From: a virus
Length of the DNA: 28,752 nucleotides
Strand: one strand, 5' to 3'
Virus record (IMG/VR): IMGVR_UViG_3300010370_000174
Location: 1-28,752 of that record
The translations under genes and the position numbers were made by a program. Numbering within the stretch: position 1 is the first letter of the stretch; each line of letters opens with the position of its first letter. The notes under the pieces were generated by a model. It made no database searches. It was not told the DNA's origin and worked only from the letters and a program-made list of their open reading frames with translations. Positions 2,681 to 27,544 of the stretch are shown here, piece by piece.

Positions 2681-5548
2681 TCACAACATTCCGTAATTGA
2701 CCATCTTGTAACCAGATGGGTGAATGGCGACTGCTTCTGGCAGCACAGCTTCTAACTCGTCAGCCATGACGCCGCGCTGACGCTCGCCAAATATGTCGTA
2801 CTCGTAGATACCAATGCCGAGCGGGTGCGTACCGACGCGCACAATGTTGGACTTCAAGCGGCGATCTGACATTCCAAACAATCCGGGAATGCTGCCTGCG
2901 CCGCCGATTGCGGTTCCCGCCGCACCAGCAAGTTGCCCAAGCATTCCCATGCCCGCGTTATACGCGCCAACTTGGTTCTGATAGTTACGCTGTGCGAAAT
3001 CGCCCGCTGCCTGACCGGCTTGGAATACCGGCGGTGGCGCGATGTTGACGCCGCTGTAGCCTTGGAATTGCGGGATGCTGACCTGACCGCCTGACAACAA
3101 CGCGCTGATTTCGTTAACCGGCAGGGAGCGAATAGCCGCCTGCTGTGCCAACGCCTGCTGTGCCGCCGTGTTGCGGAACTGCGCCTGTGCAAACGCTTGG
3201 TTGTACTGCTGCTGTTGTGCGGCGTTCTGCGCTTGTACACGCGCCATATCCTGCTGGAATCGCTGCGAGAGAGCCGCATTGCGGGCTTCTTGCTGCTGCA
3301 CAATCTGCTGGAATTGCTGGCCTTGCGTGGCGTTCTGCGCCTGCTGACGAGCCAATTCCTGCTGCATGGCCTGCGCTTGCGCTTGGTTGTAGAACGCAGA
3401 AGCGCCTTGCGCCTGACCAGCCTGTTGAGCCTGTCGTGCGAGGTTGGCCTGCTGCGCGGCAAGCTGCTGCTGGAAATTCTGCCCTGCGGCAGCGTTGGCA
3501 AGTTCGGCTTGCGTGACCTGCTGACCAAAGACTTGCTGCAACGCCTGATTTTGCGCGGCTTGTAGCGCAAGGTCGCGGTTGTAGTTTTGCGCGATGGCTT
3601 CGTTGGTCAACTGTTGCGCCTGCTGACCCATGCCAAACTGCTGTAGCAGCGCCTCGCGGTTAAACTGGCCTGCGCCAAGCGCCTGTTGGTAGTTCTGCGC
3701 GATAGCAGCGTTTTGTGCTTGTTGAGCGGCCAGAGCTTGCTCAAAGTTCTGCCCAACAGCTTGATTGCCCATCTGCTGCGCGGCCTGCGCTTGTGCAAAG
3801 TTTTGCGCGATGGCCTGATTGATCGCCTGCTGCGCTTGCTGCCCAGTCTGGAACGATGCCAACTGCGCCTCTTGGCCAAATTCGCCTGCGGCGAGACGCT
3901 GTGCAAACTGCTGCGCCTGCGCTTCGTTGGCAAACTGACCGCTTGCCAAGGCTTGCTGCGTGTTCTGTGCGATAGCGCGGTTCCGAGCTTCTTCGCTCTG
4001 CATACCTGCGCCAAAACGAGCCAGTTCGCCCTCTCGGCCAAACTCGGCACCGGCAAGGCGCTGCTGGAACGCCTGCTGCTGTGCTTGGTTCTGCGCTTGC
4101 TGCGCTGCCAAAGACTGCTGGAAGTTCTGACCAAGGCCGACGTTATACAGCCCCGCCTGCTCCATGCCTGCGCCAAAACCCGACAGCGCGGCTTGGTTAG
4201 CAAACATAGCGCGTGACTGCTGCTCGGCAAACTGCTGCTGACGAGCGGCTTGGTCAAGGCTGATGCCCTGCGCGGCGGCTTGCAGCAGAAGGTCGTTTTC
4301 TTTCTGCATTTGCGCCGACATGGCAGCGTTGTACGCCTCGCCACCCGGTCGCAAGCCTTGGTTAATCAGCTGCGTCTGAAGCTGCTGACGTTCGCCCTGC
4401 AACTGCGGCGACAAACGCGACAGGATCGCTTGCTGCGCCGTTGAGCCTGCGTTGATCGGGCCTTGTGCAATGTTAGAAACATCAATCTGACCCTGTAATT
4501 GCGGGCCTTGGACAAACTGCTGCGCGTAACCAAACTGCCCAGCTTGCGGGCCACCCATCGGGCCGCCAAGCCCTGACAAATCCAAGCCTTGCAACTGCGG
4601 GCCTGCAACCGTGCCGCCCTGTGCCTGACCAAACTGGCCGACGTTGCCTTGAACGCCTTGGACACCGCTGGTATCCAAGCCACCAAGCTGCACACCGGCA
4701 GGGCCGCCGCCAGCAAGGCCAAACAAACCGCCAGATGGGCCGCCAAACGCTGCGCCGAAATCAAACCCACCGGGGGCTATCTGCGAATAAAACCGTGATT
4801 CGTCTAATTGGCCAAGATTGGTTGGAACAGGGCGGCCGCCTTGGGCAACGCCGTAATACTGCGAATCACGCGGCTGATTTGCGCCCGCAATGCCAGCCAA
4901 TCCTTGCGCTTGCTGGCCTGCGGTAACTTGCCCCGGCAACGCCTCTACGTTGTAGCCCGCCATCGGGGTATATGCGCCAGTTGGCGCACCCATCAGCCCT
5001 GCGTTGGCATAGCTGATGTCGGTATATCCCGGCGTCTCTTGATACCCCATGTAGTTGCTCGGGGTAACAATGTTGTCGTACGGGCCAATGGCTCCGTACA
5101 CAAGGTCGGGAACGCCGCTTGGCCGAAACGCCGAGGCAATACCAAGGTTGCCAAGGCCGCTTGCTGCGCCTGATGCAGCCTGCGACATATACAGCTGTGC
5201 CAATTCCTGCTGCCGCAACGCTGCTTCGGCGTTCGGGTTGATGGTTTGGCGAACAGTCGGCTGCTCAATGTAAGTCGTGAACTGCTCTTGCGTTGGCGCT
5301 TCGCCAGCGTTGCCGTAAGGATCGTTAAACGCCCGTGCCTGCCATGCCTCCATCGCCTTGTTGTAGGCGTCGGTGTCTATGGTGGGCGTTTTCGTCCACT
5401 CAACGGTCTGCGTACCAGACGGCGTATAAATGTTGGGATTGGACATATACGCCGACTGCTTGGCGGCGGCCAAGTTAGCCTCACCCTGCTTGATAGCAAG
5501 AGTGGTGTAGTCAGGCGCTGGTGGCGGTGCTGGTGATTTTTTGCCCAT
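2681..5548 (-). CDS. Giant Gln/Ala repeat virion protein with C-terminal S74-type chaperone motif
   Basis: 955 aa. Residues 1-300 are mixed and Gly/Pro/Tyr-rich. Around 300-360 are Gly/Gln repeats. Then comes a motif of the type QGLRPGGEAYN, seen in many podophage virion proteins. Residues 422-817 are 22 consecutive 18-residue units, mostly starting with an aromatic or Leu and often ending QN. A Gly-rich linker leads to SDRRLK at 894-899 and GVMADELEAVLPEAV, the signature of the peptidase S74 / intramolecular chaperone domain of tail spikes and fibres, here in a short 62-residue form. Known members trimerise fibres, and longer ones self-cleave just before the Ser. It starts inside the end of the GNAT gene (38-base overlap). 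It is probably a tail fibre or long virion rod; whether it self-cleaves is open. Confidence 0.85.
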   Translation of the reverse strand: MGKKSPAPPPAPDYTTLAIKQGEANLAAAKQSAYMSNPNIYTPSGTQTVEWTKTPTIDTDAYNKAMEAWQARAFNDPYGNAGEAPTQEQFTTYIEQPTVRQTINPNAEAALRQQELAQLYMSQAASGAASGLGNLGIASAFRPSGVPDLVYGAIGPYDNIVTPSNYMGYQETPGYTDISYANAGLMGAPTGAYTPMAGYNVEALPGQVTAGQQAQGLAGIAGANQPRDSQYYGVAQGGRPVPTNLGQLDESRFYSQIAPGGFDFGAAFGGPSGGLFGLAGGGPAGVQLGGLDTSGVQGVQGNVGQFGQAQGGTVAGPQLQGLDLSGLGGPMGGPQAGQFGYAQQFVQGPQLQGQIDVSNIAQGPINAGSTAQQAILSRLSPQLQGERQQLQTQLINQGLRPGGEAYNAAMSAQMQKENDLLLQAAAQGISLDQAARQQQFAEQQSRAMFANQAALSGFGAGMEQAGLYNVGLGQNFQQSLAAQQAQNQAQQQAFQQRLAGAEFGREGELARFGAGMQSEEARNRAIAQNTQQALASGQFANEAQAQQFAQRLAAGEFGQEAQLASFQTGQQAQQAINQAIAQNFAQAQAAQQMGNQAVGQNFEQALAAQQAQNAAIAQNYQQALGAGQFNREALLQQFGMGQQAQQLTNEAIAQNYNRDLALQAAQNQALQQVFGQQVTQAELANAAAGQNFQQQLAAQQANLARQAQQAGQAQGASAFYNQAQAQAMQQELARQQAQNATQGQQFQQIVQQQEARNAALSQRFQQDMARVQAQNAAQQQQYNQAFAQAQFRNTAAQQALAQQAAIRSLPVNEISALLSGGQVSIPQFQGYSGVNIAPPPVFQAGQAAGDFAQRNYQNQVGAYNAGMGMLGQLAGAAGTAIGGAGSIPGLFGMSDRRLKSNIVRVGTHPLGIGIYEYDIFGERQRGVMADELEAVLPEAVAIHPSGYKMVNYGML
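3098..4285 (-). repeat. 22 tandem 18-residue (54-bp) repeats inside the giant virion protein gene
   Basis: Read in the gene's frame, residues 422-817 divide into 22 units of exactly 18 residues with no insertions or deletions. Unit 1 begins at codon 4285 and the last, degenerate one ends at codon 3098. Rough pattern: F/Y at position 1, Q at 2-3, L or A at 5, A/G at 6-7, Q or F at 9-10, N at 12, A at 14, Q at 17, N/Q at 18. At DNA level the units are diverged (imperfect 54-bp repeats). Eighteen residues equal five turns of a 3.6-residue helix, so a straight helical rod or bundle is likely. Confidence 0.9.
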
Positions 5549-17580: not shown

Positions 17581-17951
17581 GTGATGACCAAATCCTTGCC
17601 ATCAGCGCCCGTCAGCTCGTTCTTTTCCCGTTGCCCGAGGTACTGCTTACCAAGCCACACTAGCATCGTGGTGTTGCCTTCCTCTAACGCCCGCCATTGG
17701 TGGCGGCGCAGCGACATTTTGCCGCCTTCCATGCCGCTTTTATAAATCTCCATAAACTTCTCGTTGGTTAGCAGCGTATTGACGTGACAACCAAGCCAAG
17801 CGGCGATTTCGGTCTGCGTACATTGGATGCTTGCCAGCTTCTTAACAGCTTCATAATCAATCTCAAACGGGGGGCGACCGCCGCCTTCTCCTTGGTGGCC
17901 TTGCTTGGGTTGGCCGGTGCGTTCGCTAATGCGCGTCTCCTTGCGTTTCAT
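17562..17951 (-). CDS. terS: Terminase small subunit (DNA recognition)
   Basis: 129 aa. Residues about 33-62 (VKKLASIQCTQTEIAAWLGC followed by HVNTLL) form a helix-turn-helix of the kind used by small terminases to bind the packaging site. A helical oligomerisation region follows (LRRHQWRALEEGNTTMLVWLGKQYLGQREK). The ending KDLVITWLPPQ is a beta-strand tail typical of these proteins. It directly precedes terL and its ATG overlaps the TGA of the methyltransferase gene. It would form a ring that selects phage DNA and stimulates TerL. Confidence 0.88.
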   Translation of the reverse strand: MKRKETRISERTGQPKQGHQGEGGGRPPFEIDYEAVKKLASIQCTQTEIAAWLGCHVNTLLTNEKFMEIYKSGMEGGKMSLRRHQWRALEEGNTTMLVWLGKQYLGQREKNELTGADGKDLVITWLPPQ

Positions 17952-19156
17952 GCCGCGGCCTTAAACGGTTCGCCGGTAGATTCCAGCACGGCTTTCTGGC
18001 CGGTGAAGTCCTCCCAGCGTTTAACGATAACGTCCACGTACTTCGGGTCTAGTTCCATAATGCGGGCGATGCGTCCGTTCTTTTCCGCAGCAATTAACGT
18101 TGTACCGCTGCCCCCAAAGCAATCAATGACGGCATCCCCTGCTTTAGTGCTGTTAGCCAATGCTTTTTCTACAAGAGCAGCAGGCTTTTGCGTTGGGTGA
18201 ACATAACCTGTTGTTTTATCACGGTTTATTTGCCAAACGTCAGATTGGCTGCGGTCGCCATACCACGCGCCACCTTTGCTATAAAAAATAAACTCATGTT
18301 GTGGGCGGTATTCTTGATGCCCTAATCCAACTGATTTTTTATCCCAGACAATGCAACTAGTTACTAGCAGCCCTGCGCCTGTCATTGCTTGCTCAAATTG
18401 TGCATACGTTCGCCACGGGAAGCACACATAACTAGCGGCTCCCGCCTTACTTGCCGATTTTGCCGTTGTAAGCGCATCACGCACTAATTGGATTAAATCA
18501 TCGCCTTGGGCATCGTCATTTTTAATCATGCCAAACTGCTTTTTGCCCCGCCCACCCTCATACGCCATGCCGTAAGGCGGATCAGTAAACAACAGATCGG
18601 CTTGCAGACCAGCCATCAGCGTTGCCATTGCAGTTTCGCTGGTGCTATCGCCACACATTACCCGGTGTTGGCCGCATACCCATACGTCGCCAAGGCGCGT
18701 GACAGGCTCTACGGGCGGCTCGGGCGTATCGTCGGGGTCAGTTAGCCCCTCCGTTCCCTTTTCGGCCAATAGGGCGTCTATTTCGTCCGTGTTGAAGCCG
18801 GTAAGGTTTAGGTCAAAGTCCAGCGCCTTGAGGTCAGCCAACTCCAGTTTGAGCATGGCCTCATCCCACCCAGCGTTAAGGGCAAGTTTGTTGTCGGCAA
18901 TAACATAAGCCCGCTTTTGGGCGTCTGACAGGTGGGCAAGGCGTATGCACGGCACCTCGGTCAGTTTTAGCTTACGAGCAGCCATAACGCGCCCGTGACC
19001 GGCAATAATGCCGTTGGCCTCGTCTATCAATACGGGGTTGGTGAAGCCAAACTCGCGGATGCTGGCCGCGATCTGGGCTACCTGTGCGTCGCTATGTGTG
19101 CGGCTATTTTTCGCAAACGGGATCAGGGTGGCGATCCCGATTTGTTCAATTTGCAC
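17948..19156 (-). CDS. ParB-like domain fused to beta-class DNA methyltransferase
   Basis: 402 aa, GTG start directly after the TAG of the upstream gene. Residues 1-110 are a ParB/Srx-type domain with the GHGR motif at 53-56 and VPCIRLAHLSDAQKRAY. Residues 155-390 form an N6-adenine/N4-cytosine methyltransferase: motif IV DPPYG at 192-196, HPTQKP at 320-325, then motif I DCFGGSGT at 345-352. Catalytic motif before SAM motif makes it beta class, like CcrM. It methylates DNA; there is no partner restriction endonuclease nearby, so it is an orphan, probably protecting phage DNA or marking it. ParB-MTase fusions beside terminases are known in phages. ATGA overlap with terS. Confidence 0.9.
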   Translation of the reverse strand: MQIEQIGIATLIPFAKNSRTHSDAQVAQIAASIREFGFTNPVLIDEANGIIAGHGRVMAARKLKLTEVPCIRLAHLSDAQKRAYVIADNKLALNAGWDEAMLKLELADLKALDFDLNLTGFNTDEIDALLAEKGTEGLTDPDDTPEPPVEPVTRLGDVWVCGQHRVMCGDSTSETAMATLMAGLQADLLFTDPPYGMAYEGGRGKKQFGMIKNDDAQGDDLIQLVRDALTTAKSASKAGAASYVCFPWRTYAQFEQAMTGAGLLVTSCIVWDKKSVGLGHQEYRPQHEFIFYSKGGAWYGDRSQSDVWQINRDKTTGYVHPTQKPAALVEKALANSTKAGDAVIDCFGGSGTTLIAAEKNGRIARIMELDPKYVDVIVKRWEDFTGQKAVLESTGEPFKAAA

Positions 19157-19524
19157 TATTTGAAACGCTCCAGCTTGTACGACAGGGCGGCAATCTCACC
19201 CACGATCTCATCCACGATGTTCTGCAAGTCGGTGTCTTTCGGCAAATCGGTGCGAATGCCCTTTACGAACGTCAGCAGGCTGTCGGCGTAGGCAGCGGCG
19301 TCTTTCTGTACCTTAAACCCGTCCGGGTAGTCATCTAGCGGGATAATTCCGAAATGACCTTGGTAACTTTCGGCGTATTTGTCGGCCAACGCGATAATAT
19401 TTTCATAGTAATGGCCAAGCGCCTTATGAGCGGCGTAGCTCGCGGTGTTGAGGTGCAAATAGTGCGCTGCCGTGCTGCTATGGAGCAGTACACCTACGAA
19501 CTCGGCGGCATCTTTATGGCTCAT
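19156..19524 (-). CDS. DUF5856 ferritin/Dps-like phage protein
   Basis: 122 aa from MSHKDAAEFVGVLLHSSTAA, where the ATG overlaps the TGA of the preceding gene (ATGA); a longer frame reading back 44 codons is not needed. The sequence HYLHLNTASYAAHKALGHYYENIIALADKYAESYQG matches DUF5856, a four-helix family of phage proteins resembling ferritin/Dps helices, with histidines and glutamates at the spacing of a metal site (H21, H24, H33, H38, E41). The last 50 residues are helical. The role of the family is unproven; DNA protection or a structural helical bundle are options. It sits just ahead of the DNA methyltransferase. Confidence 0.75.
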   Translation of the reverse strand: MSHKDAAEFVGVLLHSSTAAHYLHLNTASYAAHKALGHYYENIIALADKYAESYQGHFGIIPLDDYPDGFKVQKDAAAYADSLLTFVKGIRTDLPKDTDLQNIVDEIVGEIAALSYKLERFK

Positions 19525-20132
19525 TGCGGCGTTAGCCTCAAGTTGGGCAGGATGATTGCAGTCGTAGCATCTCCCATCGCAAAACGCTCTGTCAACTGTC
19601 GTTCTGGCGGGTATACGAGGATGCGATTTGACAGGTTTATCTGCATGGCGTTCCACACGCCTTTTTCTATGCCTTCAAAGTCGTCTAGCGTGATGATGGT
19701 ATCGGGGTGGAACAGCCGTTCTAGGTGCGCCCGATCATCTGGCTGTAGCCGCCCGTCTACGTGTATGTGGTCAATTTGCCCGTCAAGTTTAGCGAGCATT
19801 TCTGTGCTGCTGCTGTGGTATTGCGTGACGTTCGCGTAAATCGGCAGCTTGAAGTTGTGTGTCATATCGCACGTATGCACCTCGGTATCGCCCCGAGCCA
19901 GCACAAACGTGGACTTGCCGATATAAGTGCCAATTTCCACCACGCGCTTCGGCTTGAAGTAGCGTTTAACCGCCCAAAGGGCAATTAGGCTGGCGTTGTT
20001 GGTGGAACCCGTCTGCTTTGCCGGGTCTAACGCCTCAAGGTCATCAAGGCGTTGCCACGGTAAATCTTCCAATCCGTCAAAAAGCGTATCCCAGATAGCC
20101 CTAGACAGTCGTTTTCTGTTTAAGTTCAGCAT
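19521..20132 (-). CDS. Class I SAM-dependent methyltransferase-like protein
   Basis: 203 aa. Motif I VVEIGTYIGKST at residues 64-75 and the following acidic strand (TEVHTCDMT) identify a Rossmann SAM fold of the O-methyltransferase/Methyltransf_24 type. DHIHVDGRL and TIITLDDFEG correspond to later core strands. The first 60 residues are a helical cap. The ATG has AGAGGA six bases upstream. It is the first gene of the long minus-strand array and starts 11 bases from a divergent glycosyltransferase gene. Substrate unknown; methylation of a sugar or small molecule is possible given the nearby glycosyltransferase. Confidence 0.75.
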   Translation of the reverse strand: MLNLNRKRLSRAIWDTLFDGLEDLPWQRLDDLEALDPAKQTGSTNNASLIALWAVKRYFKPKRVVEIGTYIGKSTFVLARGDTEVHTCDMTHNFKLPIYANVTQYHSSSTEMLAKLDGQIDHIHVDGRLQPDDRAHLERLFHPDTIITLDDFEGIEKGVWNAMQINLSNRILVYPPERQLTERFAMGDATTAIILPNLRLTPQ

Positions 20133-24285: not shown

Positions 24286-24919
24286 AACCATCGGCGCATT
24301 GGCCGCCGCGTTAAGCAAAGCCCAAGCCGACATTACCGGGGCGCTGAAAGACAGCAGCAACCCGTTTTTCAAGTCCAAGTACGCCGATCTAGCGTCTTGT
24401 TGGGACGCTTGCCGTAAGCAGTTAGCGGCTAACGGTTTGTCGGTAATACAGACCACGCAGATGACAGAGCAGGGCTTGATGCTCGTCACCACGCTCGCTC
24501 ACAGCAGCGGTGAGTGGATTGCAGGACAGATGCCCGTGCTGACCAAGGACAACAGCCCGCAGGGGCAAGGTTCTGGCATTACCTACGCTCGCCGCTATGC
24601 CCTCGCAGCGATTGTGGGATTGGCGCAGATTGACGATGACGCGGAGGCTGCCCAAGGCCGAGCGTTTACGAACGACCCGCGTGGCGATCTGGGTAAGAAG
24701 GTTGACCAGACCAAGCGTGACCAGTTCGTGCAGCAGTTCCGTGGCGCGTTTGATTTAGACGCCGAGGAGAAAGACATAGCCCTTGCCGTGATGGCGGTAC
24801 ATGAGGCGCTCAACCCTGACCACGACCTGTATATCGCCGTGGCAGACGTACTGACGGCAAAGGAACGGTCAGCGATCAAGAAGTACATTCAAATGGCAAA
24901 GGAGCAGAACCGTGGATAA
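24275..24919 (+). CDS. erf: ERF-family single-strand annealing protein
   Basis: 214 aa. Residues 1-130 match the ERF superfamily: LAAALSKAQADITGALKDSSNPFFKSKYADLA, HSSGEWIAGQMPV and the diagnostic block QGQGSGITYARRYALAAIVG followed by DDDAEA at about 97-126. ERF proteins form rings that anneal homologous single strands, circularising or recombining phage DNA independently of RecA. The C-terminal 90 residues are helical and charged. AAAGGAG precedes the ATG. It neighbours an SSB-like protein, a nuclease, NinB and DUF1364, so this is the recombination module. Confidence 0.92.
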   Translation: MQSETIGALAAALSKAQADITGALKDSSNPFFKSKYADLASCWDACRKQLAANGLSVIQTTQMTEQGLMLVTTLAHSSGEWIAGQMPVLTKDNSPQGQGSGITYARRYALAAIVGLAQIDDDAEAAQGRAFTNDPRGDLGKKVDQTKRDQFVQQFRGAFDLDAEEKDIALAVMAVHEALNPDHDLYIAVADVLTAKERSAIKKYIQMAKEQNRG

Positions 24920-25196
24920 GTTTGACCCGAATATGCGTGGCGTCCTGTTCAAGAACGACAAGGGCGAGAACGCCAAACGTCCTGACTTTCGTGGGTCGTG
25001 CGTAATCAACAACGTGGATTTCAACGTGTCGGGCTGGAAGAAAACGAGCCAGAAAACGGGTGATACCTACTTGTCGCTGAAGTTTGAGGCGAAGGGCGAG
25101 GGCAAGCTGTCGCGTAGTGGTGAACCGCAGCGCCAGCCGACCAAGCAGCCGCAGATAACCGAAAAGAATTGGGACGACCTTGATACACCCTTCTGA
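24912..25196 (+). CDS. SSB-like ssDNA-binding protein
   Basis: 94 aa, GTG start with AAAGGAG eight bases upstream, overlapping the ERF end. Residues 5-62 (MRGVLFKNDKGENAKRPDFR ... GWKKTSQKTGDTYLSLKFEA) resemble the short OB-type phage proteins that bind single strands. A Gln/Pro/Lys linker then leads to the end NWDDLDTPF. The acidic, Phe-terminated tip is like the DDDIPF tip by which bacterial SSB recruits partner enzymes. In an ERF cassette this is a natural partner. Known SSBs are usually longer; the family call is inference from motif and context. Confidence 0.7.
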   Translation: MDKFDPNMRGVLFKNDKGENAKRPDFRGSCVINNVDFNVSGWKKTSQKTGDTYLSLKFEAKGEGKLSRSGEPQRQPTKQPQITEKNWDDLDTPF

Positions 25197-25650
25197 CTTT
25201 GAGGCACGGTTTAGGGCTAGTCGCCCGGCAGAGATTGTCGTGGCGACTTACCTACTGAACCTCGGGCATACGGTGACGTTGCCCAAGCGTCGTATGGCGA
25301 AAGACTTTGCTGACCGCAAAGAGTTTGCCGATAAGGGCGACGTATATGCCTCGGGTAAACGAATAGAGGTAAAACACATCAAGCATGATTTCCAGTACGA
25401 GGCGTGGCCGTTTGAGACAGCCGCTATCTGTGCCAAGAAGTCGTTTGATGCTGCCGATCCTCGCCCCGATTACTACTACATCGTCAACGCAAGCCTGACC
25501 GTGGCGGCGCTGGTGGATGTGCGAACCACGTTCCCTGACTGGCTGGTGCGGAAAATCACCGATAAGGAGCGTGGATACGAATACGACGTTTACGCCGTTG
25601 CGCCCGAATATCTCGGATGGCGATATATAGACTTTGAGGAACGCTTATGA
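25180..25650 (+). CDS. PD-(D/E)XK-type nuclease
   Basis: 156 aa, probably from the TTG giving MIHPSDFEARFRASRPAEIV, overlapping the SSB-like gene by 17 bases; no closer ATG would keep the fold. The core is visible: a helix (AEIVVATYLLNLGH), then GDVYASGKRIEVKH at 53-66 with D54, E63 and K65, the classic D-(n)-ExK arrangement, then YYYIVNASLTVAALVDV. This looks like a Holliday-junction or restriction-type endonuclease fold. It ends in an ATGA overlap with the glycosyltransferase gene. The substrate is unknown; recombination intermediates are plausible. Confidence 0.7.
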   Translation: MIHPSDFEARFRASRPAEIVVATYLLNLGHTVTLPKRRMAKDFADRKEFADKGDVYASGKRIEVKHIKHDFQYEAWPFETAAICAKKSFDAADPRPDYYYIVNASLTVAALVDVRTTFPDWLVRKITDKERGYEYDVYAVAPEYLGWRYIDFEERL

Positions 25651-26315
25651 CGGAACTCCCCATCTTCATCGGCTACGACAGCCGTGAGGACATCGCGTAT
25701 CGGGTAGCGCGGCGCAGCATTGAGCGCCATGCCCGTAACCCCATCTACATCCAGCCGATTGACCAAGCGTATATGCGCTCGGTAGGACTGTACTGGCGTC
25801 CTGACGATCCGCTTTCGTCAACGCAGTTTAGTTTTACGCGCTTTCTCGTCCCCTACCTTTGTGAGTACAAGGGTTGGGCGGTGTTTCTGGATTGTGACTT
25901 CTTGGTACGGCATGACCTGACGCAGATATGGCGCTATGTTGATAAAACGAAAGCGGTCTTTTGCGTACACCACGACTACAAGCCTACCGAGGCGGTCAAA
26001 ATGGATGGCAAGGCGCAGCATCCCTACGCTCGCAAAAACTGGTCATCATTTATGTTCATCAACTGCGAGCATGAGGCAACGCAACGCCTCACGCCAGAGC
26101 TGGTGAACAGCGAGACGGGAATGTACTTGCATCAGTTCAAGTGGTGCGCTGACGATCAGATTGGCGAGTTGCCCATGACCTTCAACTACCTTGAGGGCTG
26201 GCACACCAAGGCTGACGAACCCGACCCGGTGTGCGTACACATGACCCGTGGCGGCCCGTGGTTCCCCGGCTACCAAGACGTTGAGTACGCCGAGGAGTGG
26301 AAGGCGTATACATGA
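25647..26315 (+). CDS. Glycosyltransferase (GT8-like, GT-A fold)
   Basis: 222 aa. IFIGYDSREDIAYRVARRSI near the start is characteristic of GT8-related phage and bacterial transferases, and AVFLDCDFLVRHD carries the DxD metal site at residues 82-84. FSFTRFLVPYLCEYKG, SSFMFINCEH and FNYLEGW are further family blocks. It should add a sugar from a nucleotide-sugar donor; acceptor unknown. It sits in the early operon among recombination genes, coupled by ATGA on both sides. Second glycosyltransferase of the window and not closely similar to the one at 20144-20797 apart from the DxD. Confidence 0.82.
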   Translation: MTELPIFIGYDSREDIAYRVARRSIERHARNPIYIQPIDQAYMRSVGLYWRPDDPLSSTQFSFTRFLVPYLCEYKGWAVFLDCDFLVRHDLTQIWRYVDKTKAVFCVHHDYKPTEAVKMDGKAQHPYARKNWSSFMFINCEHEATQRLTPELVNSETGMYLHQFKWCADDQIGELPMTFNYLEGWHTKADEPDPVCVHMTRGGPWFPGYQDVEYAEEWKAYT

Positions 26316-26722
26316 AACGCATTTTCCCCAAAGGCACTACACCCGAGCAGATGGCGGCTGCCGTTATCCGCATGACGCAAGGGCTAGACCCGAGCAAGGT
26401 GTGGGCGGTAGAGGTGGCCGAGTGGAAGAAGCCCAAAACCTCACAGCAGCTGGCCTACCTCTGGGGCGTGGTTTACCCAATGATCATGGAGGCGGGTGGA
26501 GAGGCGTTATAGGGTTGGACACGCGATGACCTACATGAGTATTTCCTTGGCGAGATATTCGGCTGGGAAACGCTCACAGGGCTTGGCAAGAAGCGTCTGC
26601 GACCACTTAAGCGAACATCACGCATGACCAAGCAAGAATTCACCGAATACTTACACGGCATTGAGAACAGGCTGATAGAACTTGGCATCGGGCCGTTACC
26701 GGAGCCGATTTATGCTGCGTAA
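26312..26722 (+). pseudogene. ninB: NinB-like recombination protein interrupted by an in-frame TAG
   Basis: From ATG at 26312 (ATGA with the upstream gene) the frame reads MKRIFPKGTTPEQMAAAVIR ... KTSQQLAYLWGVVYPMIMEA ... GGEAL, then TAG at 26510-26512 (codon 67). It continues without any other stop for 69 codons (GWTRDDLHEYFLGEIFGWET ... MTKQEFTEYLHGIENRLIEL) to TAA at 26720-26722. The combined 135 residues match the length and layout of NinB (lambda NinB/Orf, about 142-146 aa), an ssDNA-binding recombination mediator. Both halves look intact. So this is a recent nonsense mutation, an amber readthrough case, or a sequence error. CAG to TAG is the simplest change. Confidence 0.8.
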
Positions 26723-26996
26723 AGAAGCCCGAGGGCGTGGATGCACGGTGCGTATACCGGGCGTCTGTAACTTCAACAGCGAGACGGTCGTGCTGGCACA
26801 TCTGCGCGTAGCAGGGGTTAGCGGCATGGGGCTGAAGTCACCCGATCTGCTGGGTGCGTGGTGCTGTTCTAGCTGCCACGACGAGGTAGACGGCAGGACG
26901 CACAAAAGCGGGCTGTCACGCGATGAGCTGCGCCTAGCGCACTACGACGGCATGGCTCGCACGATCATGCAATTACACAAAGAGGGATTGGTATGA
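26712..26996 (+). CDS. DUF1364 putative zinc/HNH-type nuclease
   Basis: 94 aa from MLRKEARGRGCTVRIPGVCN; this ATG overlaps the end of the ninB frame by 11 bases. The pattern 'R.EARGR.C.VRIPG.CN...ETVVLAHLR..G..GMG.KSPDLLGAWCCSSCHDEVDGRT' is the DUF1364 signature. Two N-terminal and three central cysteines plus histidines suit a zinc-bound HNH-like fold. In lambdoid phages this family lies in the nin region beside NinB, as here. Likely a structure-specific nuclease in recombination; activity is inference. Coupled by ATGA to the next gene. Confidence 0.82.
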   Translation: MLRKEARGRGCTVRIPGVCNFNSETVVLAHLRVAGVSGMGLKSPDLLGAWCCSSCHDEVDGRTHKSGLSRDELRLAHYDGMARTIMQLHKEGLV

Positions 26997-27544
26997 ACTT
27001 CTGGTGCGACACGCAGTACATCACGGCATACGTGCGTAACGAGTTTCTGCACGACCATGAGAAAGGCAAAGGTGAATTTACCCTCTGCACCGTGTTTGGT
27101 TTTCGTGCTGAACCCATGCGCGTACCCTACTTCCAAATCATGTTGGAGTCAGGCGCACAATGGGCGCGTATCCCGATTCACGCGCTTTGTAGCAAGCCCT
27201 GTCCCGAGATGGCGTTACAGTTGACTGTGTGGTGGGATAGCTTTAGCCGCAACTGTCAGGTCAAAGAGGTGCAGTTCCTGCGTAACCACCGCGTCAAGGC
27301 TATAGGGCGCGATGGGGTGCAGCGACCGGGGACGTACCTGATGACCGTATTCTGGTGTGACGGTGGATGGAGTGAGGTGCCGGATCAGTCCAAAGACCAC
27401 CACATCATCGCTTTAGACTCGGGGCAATGGATTGCCTACCCTAACAACAGGTTGTTATGGGCTGACCCGAGCTGGATCGGAGGGGAAGTGCCGAGGGATT
27501 GGCGCTCCCCCTCTGATAACTACAGCGTGGAGGCACTACCGTGA
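26993..27544 (+). CDS. Conserved phage hypothetical protein
   Basis: 183 aa: MNFWCDTQYITAYVRNEFLH, rich in Trp (over ten) and with several Cys. Blocks such as VFGFRAEPMRVPYFQIMLESGAQWARIPIHALCSK and YLMTVFWCDGGWSEVPDQSKDHHIIALDSGQWIAYPNNRLLW suggest a compact beta-rich domain. I have the impression of similar proteins in other phage early regions but no functional name. ATGA with DUF1364 upstream and GTGA with the next small gene downstream. No signal or membrane segment. Confidence 0.75.
   Translation: MNFWCDTQYITAYVRNEFLHDHEKGKGEFTLCTVFGFRAEPMRVPYFQIMLESGAQWARIPIHALCSKPCPEMALQLTVWWDSFSRNCQVKEVQFLRNHRVKAIGRDGVQRPGTYLMTVFWCDGGWSEVPDQSKDHHIIALDSGQWIAYPNNRLLWADPSWIGGEVPRDWRSPSDNYSVEALP

Follow-up and report, generated by a model that had tools for sequence, protein, structure and literature searches.

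Why should a phage recombination gene carry a stop codon in its middle while the rest of its reading frame remains intact? The question is raised by the 28,752-nucleotide stretch of DNA analysed here (the window; IMG/VR record IMGVR_UViG_3300010370_000174, positions 1 to 28,752), which comes from a freshwater-type bacterial virus and contains a ninB gene with TAG at codon 67. In phage lambda this gene encodes Orf, whose ring-shaped dimer binds SSB and single-stranded DNA, assists in loading RecA or Red-beta and can substitute for RecFOR (PMC4118853), and the lambda nin genes, ninB included, are dispensable for plaque formation (PMC10695390). A first-pass annotation of the window had left several explanations standing, namely a single recent mutation, programmed readthrough, a suppressor host and a sequencing or assembly error, and we weigh them here against relatives of the gene, its predicted fold and the use of TAG elsewhere in the phage.

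An amber codon divides an otherwise complete ninB

Translation of 26312-26722 confirmed that codon 67 of ninB is TAG and that the second half of the gene is intact (Table 1). Translated through the TAG, the gene gives a 136-aa product whose residues 20-126 match PHROG 72 (homologous recombination mediators of the NinB/Orf type, E = 2.3e-11), a profile that also matches 15 of 15 representative aligned members of the family (best E = 2.2e-16). The Pfam NinB model (PF05772) matches seven of the same 15 members (best E = 1.6e-5), and the window protein itself gives no match to it at E ≤ 0.1. A structure model of the NinB family (mean pLDDT 81) submitted to Foldseek returned chains A and B of lambda NinB (1PC6) at PDB ranks 1 and 2 with probability 1.00, a fold match of moderate strength (E = 1.5e-3 and 4.7e-3, TM about 0.45); the family profile run against PDB sequences yielded chance hits only. 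Because PHROG 72, the Pfam matches in relatives and the top-ranked fold agree, the NinB name is sound as judged by profile and predicted structure. Like lambda Orf/NinB, the window gene is of similar length and has further phage recombination genes beside it, one of them for a YbcO-type nuclease; unlike it, the window protein lies outside the Pfam model, has about 21% identity to 1PC6 and is interrupted by TAG.

Table 1 Features of the ninB locus and a related tRNA gene
Feature	Position	Strand	Description	Basis
Upstream gene	25647..26315	+	222 aa, phrog_28018, unknown function	TGA overlaps ninB ATG
ninB	26312-26722	+	66 codons, TAG, 69 more codons, TAA	Translation
ninB first part	26312..26509	+	Codons 1-66, translated; predicted helices 11-21 and 45-66	Translation; structure model
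In-frame TAG	26510..26512	+	Codon 67	Translation; sense codon in 78 of 78 distinct intact relatives
ninB second part	26513..26719	+	Codons 68-136, untranslated, without further stop	Translation; own PHROG 72 match
ninB terminator	26720..26722	+	Ordinary TAA	Translation
YbcO/HNH nuclease gene	26712..26996	+	ATG inside last 11 bases of ninB	Family matches
tRNA-Gln (anticodon TTG)	L084:12068-12141		In a related phage	tRNA scan

Taken singly, the second half gives a PHROG 72 match at E = 1.5e-4 and the first one at no better than E = 0.047. In the model, TAG falls directly after the helix at 45-66 and ahead of the next one, and what lies beyond it is a helix (71-83), two strands (85-90 and 93-98) and a final helix (107-124). 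Internal restart was rejected, as the sole in-frame ATG past the stop is codon 105 and leaves 32 residues, and the contig holds no second ninB copy. Coupling to neighbours at both ends was correctly described in the first-pass annotation: ninB shares ATGA (26312-26315) with the upstream gene, and the YbcO gene starts within the end of ninB. The YbcO frame is open from 26682 and aligns in relatives. Given the GGAG 7 bases before its ATG, any polar effect of the ninB stop on YbcO is probably modest; YbcO is probably served by a ribosome site of its own and would depend on ninB translation only to a limited extent.

Relatives point to a recent C-to-T transition

A search of viral contigs found 68 loci carrying ninB, and a second one, whose query was the 156-aa gene lying two genes before it (25180-25650), brought additional ones; pooled, the two gave 78 distinct intact ninB DNA copies from public viral contigs. 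Since there are relatives that code for this 136-aa protein with no stop in it, the amber-split ninB is more than a chance arrangement of reading frames. At codon 67 all 78 copies have a sense codon; the residue is alanine in 39 copies, arginine in 21, glutamine in 11, lysine in four, glycine in two and valine in one, encoded by GCN, AGA or CGN, CAG or CAA, AAA, GGC and GTA, respectively, so that position 67 appears tolerant of substitution in NinB. The 11 closest distinct copies all have glutamine (CAG in ten, CAA in one), in line with the first-pass expectation of CAG if the stop were recent, and three of the relatives (L003, L004 and L005) encode a protein identical over 136 aa save for codon 67. 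Because the closest relatives carry CAG or CAA, one C-to-T transition suffices, and a single such change on the window lineage would be the simplest account. A degenerate-pattern search found the TAG version in no other viral contig, in collections that may omit records very close to the window, and one search of cellular genomes found no relative.

The few changes private to the window speak to the age of the stop. Set against 13 close relatives, ninB has three private sites: the TAG, plus 26533 and 26710, where the change is silent. When the comparison set is 15 distinct relatives at ≥80%, TAG and the silent change at 26533 are the only ones left. Across six genes from 24912 to 27544 there are six private changes, one nonsense and four silent. 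With so few private changes in ninB besides the stop, and those silent, the alignments indicate that the nonsense mutation is recent, which supports the first of the explanations put forward earlier. The second half differs from L004 by silent changes only. Were it neutral over the whole branch, about 7% of cases would still show no amino-acid change in this half, an estimate that takes the N/S opportunity as about 2.8 for the two silent changes; because the private silent changes are only two, this absence of decay is weak support for continued use. On the sequence comparison, an intact second half would be seen with a very recent null allele and with a suppressed codon alike. Separately, a 206-base tract (26304-26509) is identical to L004 and ends exactly at TAG, with flanks about 4-9% diverged; it is probably a small recombination patch of the kind seen in ordinary phage mosaicism.

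A loss-of-function allele is the best explanation

We favour a real, recent nonsense mutation in ninB with loss of function (probability about 0.7). By this account, a C-to-T transition turned the glutamine codon CAG into amber at codon 67, and translation would now stop after the second predicted helix and yield only a 66-residue fragment. Half of the modelled fold would be missing (one helix, a beta hairpin and the final helix), and the fragment is most likely inactive. The phage would then be without its own Orf-type mediator for loading recombinases onto SSB-coated single-stranded DNA, and by analogy with lambda it would probably survive through its Erf-like annealing protein, its own SSB and host RecFOR. 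Because intact genes for the Erf-like annealing protein and SSB are kept next door, the phage should be able to do without ninB, at least temporarily. The case resembles spontaneous phage amber alleles in that one CAG-to-TAG transition has occurred and the rest of the gene is untouched, and differs from them in being known from an uncultured phage contig alone.

Lineage-wide decay of ninB was rejected: the gene is present at every locus that carries the 156-aa upstream gene and extends far enough downstream. Its neighbours are less constant. The 222-aa upstream gene is missing in many relatives (including L013, L015-L021, L046 and L101), and YbcO is missing in L015-L021. That ninB is always kept while these two neighbouring genes come and go suggests that it is useful in nature, though lambda can spare it in the laboratory. 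As no relative long enough to show a loss of ninB has lost it, selection probably acts against the amber allele in the long run, and we expect the allele to be short-lived. This retention leaves three readings of the stop, a short-lived variant, an error or a suppressed codon.

Base-call error and incidental suppression

An error in base calling or assembly, with the real phage having CAG and an intact ninB, is unlikely. It would fit a lone C/T difference in one metagenome-derived contig, for which no second record has TAG and every sufficiently long relative has an intact gene. The remaining contig, however, looks accurate. In a comparison of gene ends with relatives that disregarded the YbcO entry, each of the 37 comparable window genes besides ninB stops no more than a few residues from the end of its counterpart in one relative or more, and none is truncated. 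The sparse private changes in the six genes around ninB, most of them silent, also argue against a generally erroneous sequence. Consensus errors are rare at a covered base.

Incidental suppression is improbable too. Here an amber-suppressor tRNA of the host or of a coinfecting phage, or leaky termination, would supply some full-length NinB and make the mutation nearly neutral. Both the intact second half, with its purely silent differences from L004, and the free variation at residue 67 are compatible with this, since almost any residue inserted there should be acceptable; recency, however, accounts equally well for the intact second half, and TAG terminates four other genes of this phage. 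Nor did the tRNA content lend support. The window, which is shorter than the longest related contigs (33-37 kb) and may lack a part of the genome, contains no tRNA gene and hence no phage-encoded suppressor; a scan of nine stretches of relatives found one tRNA only, a normal tRNA-Gln that reads CAA (Table 1). As for the host, relatives of the terminase hint loosely at phages such as Rhodoferax phage P26218. A natural host that suppresses amber, so that NinB would be conditional, its dose set by the host suppressor and its function preserved by the tolerance of position 67, is a very unlikely special case.

TAG still terminates genes in this phage

Terminators of the 39 listed window genes are TGA in 22, TAA in 13 and TAG in four. 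For the four TAG-ended genes, most homologous copies stop at that position, give or take one residue (for the gene at 19156-19656, some distinct homologues terminate much earlier), and in two of the four, relatives use TAA or TGA instead. The survey of other in-frame TAG codons proposed in the first-pass annotation turned up none within conserved genes besides that of ninB. Among 567 distinct copies of nine neighbouring genes in relatives we found no internal stop and no frame split, so the amber stop is unusual and no habit of the group; in these comparisons premature stops are rare and the ninB stop stands alone.

Programmed readthrough and recoding are extremely unlikely even when taken together. 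Programmed readthrough through codon context or downstream RNA structure, which the first-pass annotation had offered, did not withstand comparison with relatives. The 120 bases past TAG do form a somewhat better fold than their shuffled versions (z = -2.35), but the same region folds similarly in relatives with CAG or CAA (z = -2.32 in L008, which has CAG, and -0.4 to -1.8 in the others), so that folding here does not depend on the stop. Moreover, programmed sites are expected to be conserved together with their stimulating context, whereas none of the 78 relatives has the stop. We regard this mechanism as exceedingly improbable.

A phage using code 15, with TAG as glutamine, has a negligible chance of being the explanation: the closest relatives do have glutamine at position 67, as in code-15 phages such as crAss-like phages (PMC9523058), but unlike in those phages there is a single such codon, TAG still ends genes at places where homologues stop too, and a suppressor tRNA was not found. 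Genome-wide recoding was rejected on the terminal TAG codons and on the lack of further in-frame stops.

Rather than a novel system of decoding, the amber codon is thus probably an ordinary allele that abolishes ninB function, or a miscalled base. An ordinary amber allele of a phage recombination gene is of small import by itself, and it carries a caution: where a lone in-frame stop appears in one metagenomic contig, relatives should be checked before recoding or readthrough is proposed.

Other features of the window

Two further genes, both on the minus strand, deserve mention. A 955-aa protein (2681-5548) is very rich in glutamine and alanine, matches virion structural and DNA ejection families in its C-terminal part, and varies in length among relatives from 791 to 1220 aa, measured from stop to stop. 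Adjoining the terminase genes, 17948-19156 encodes a ParB-like nuclease fused to a DNA methyltransferase.
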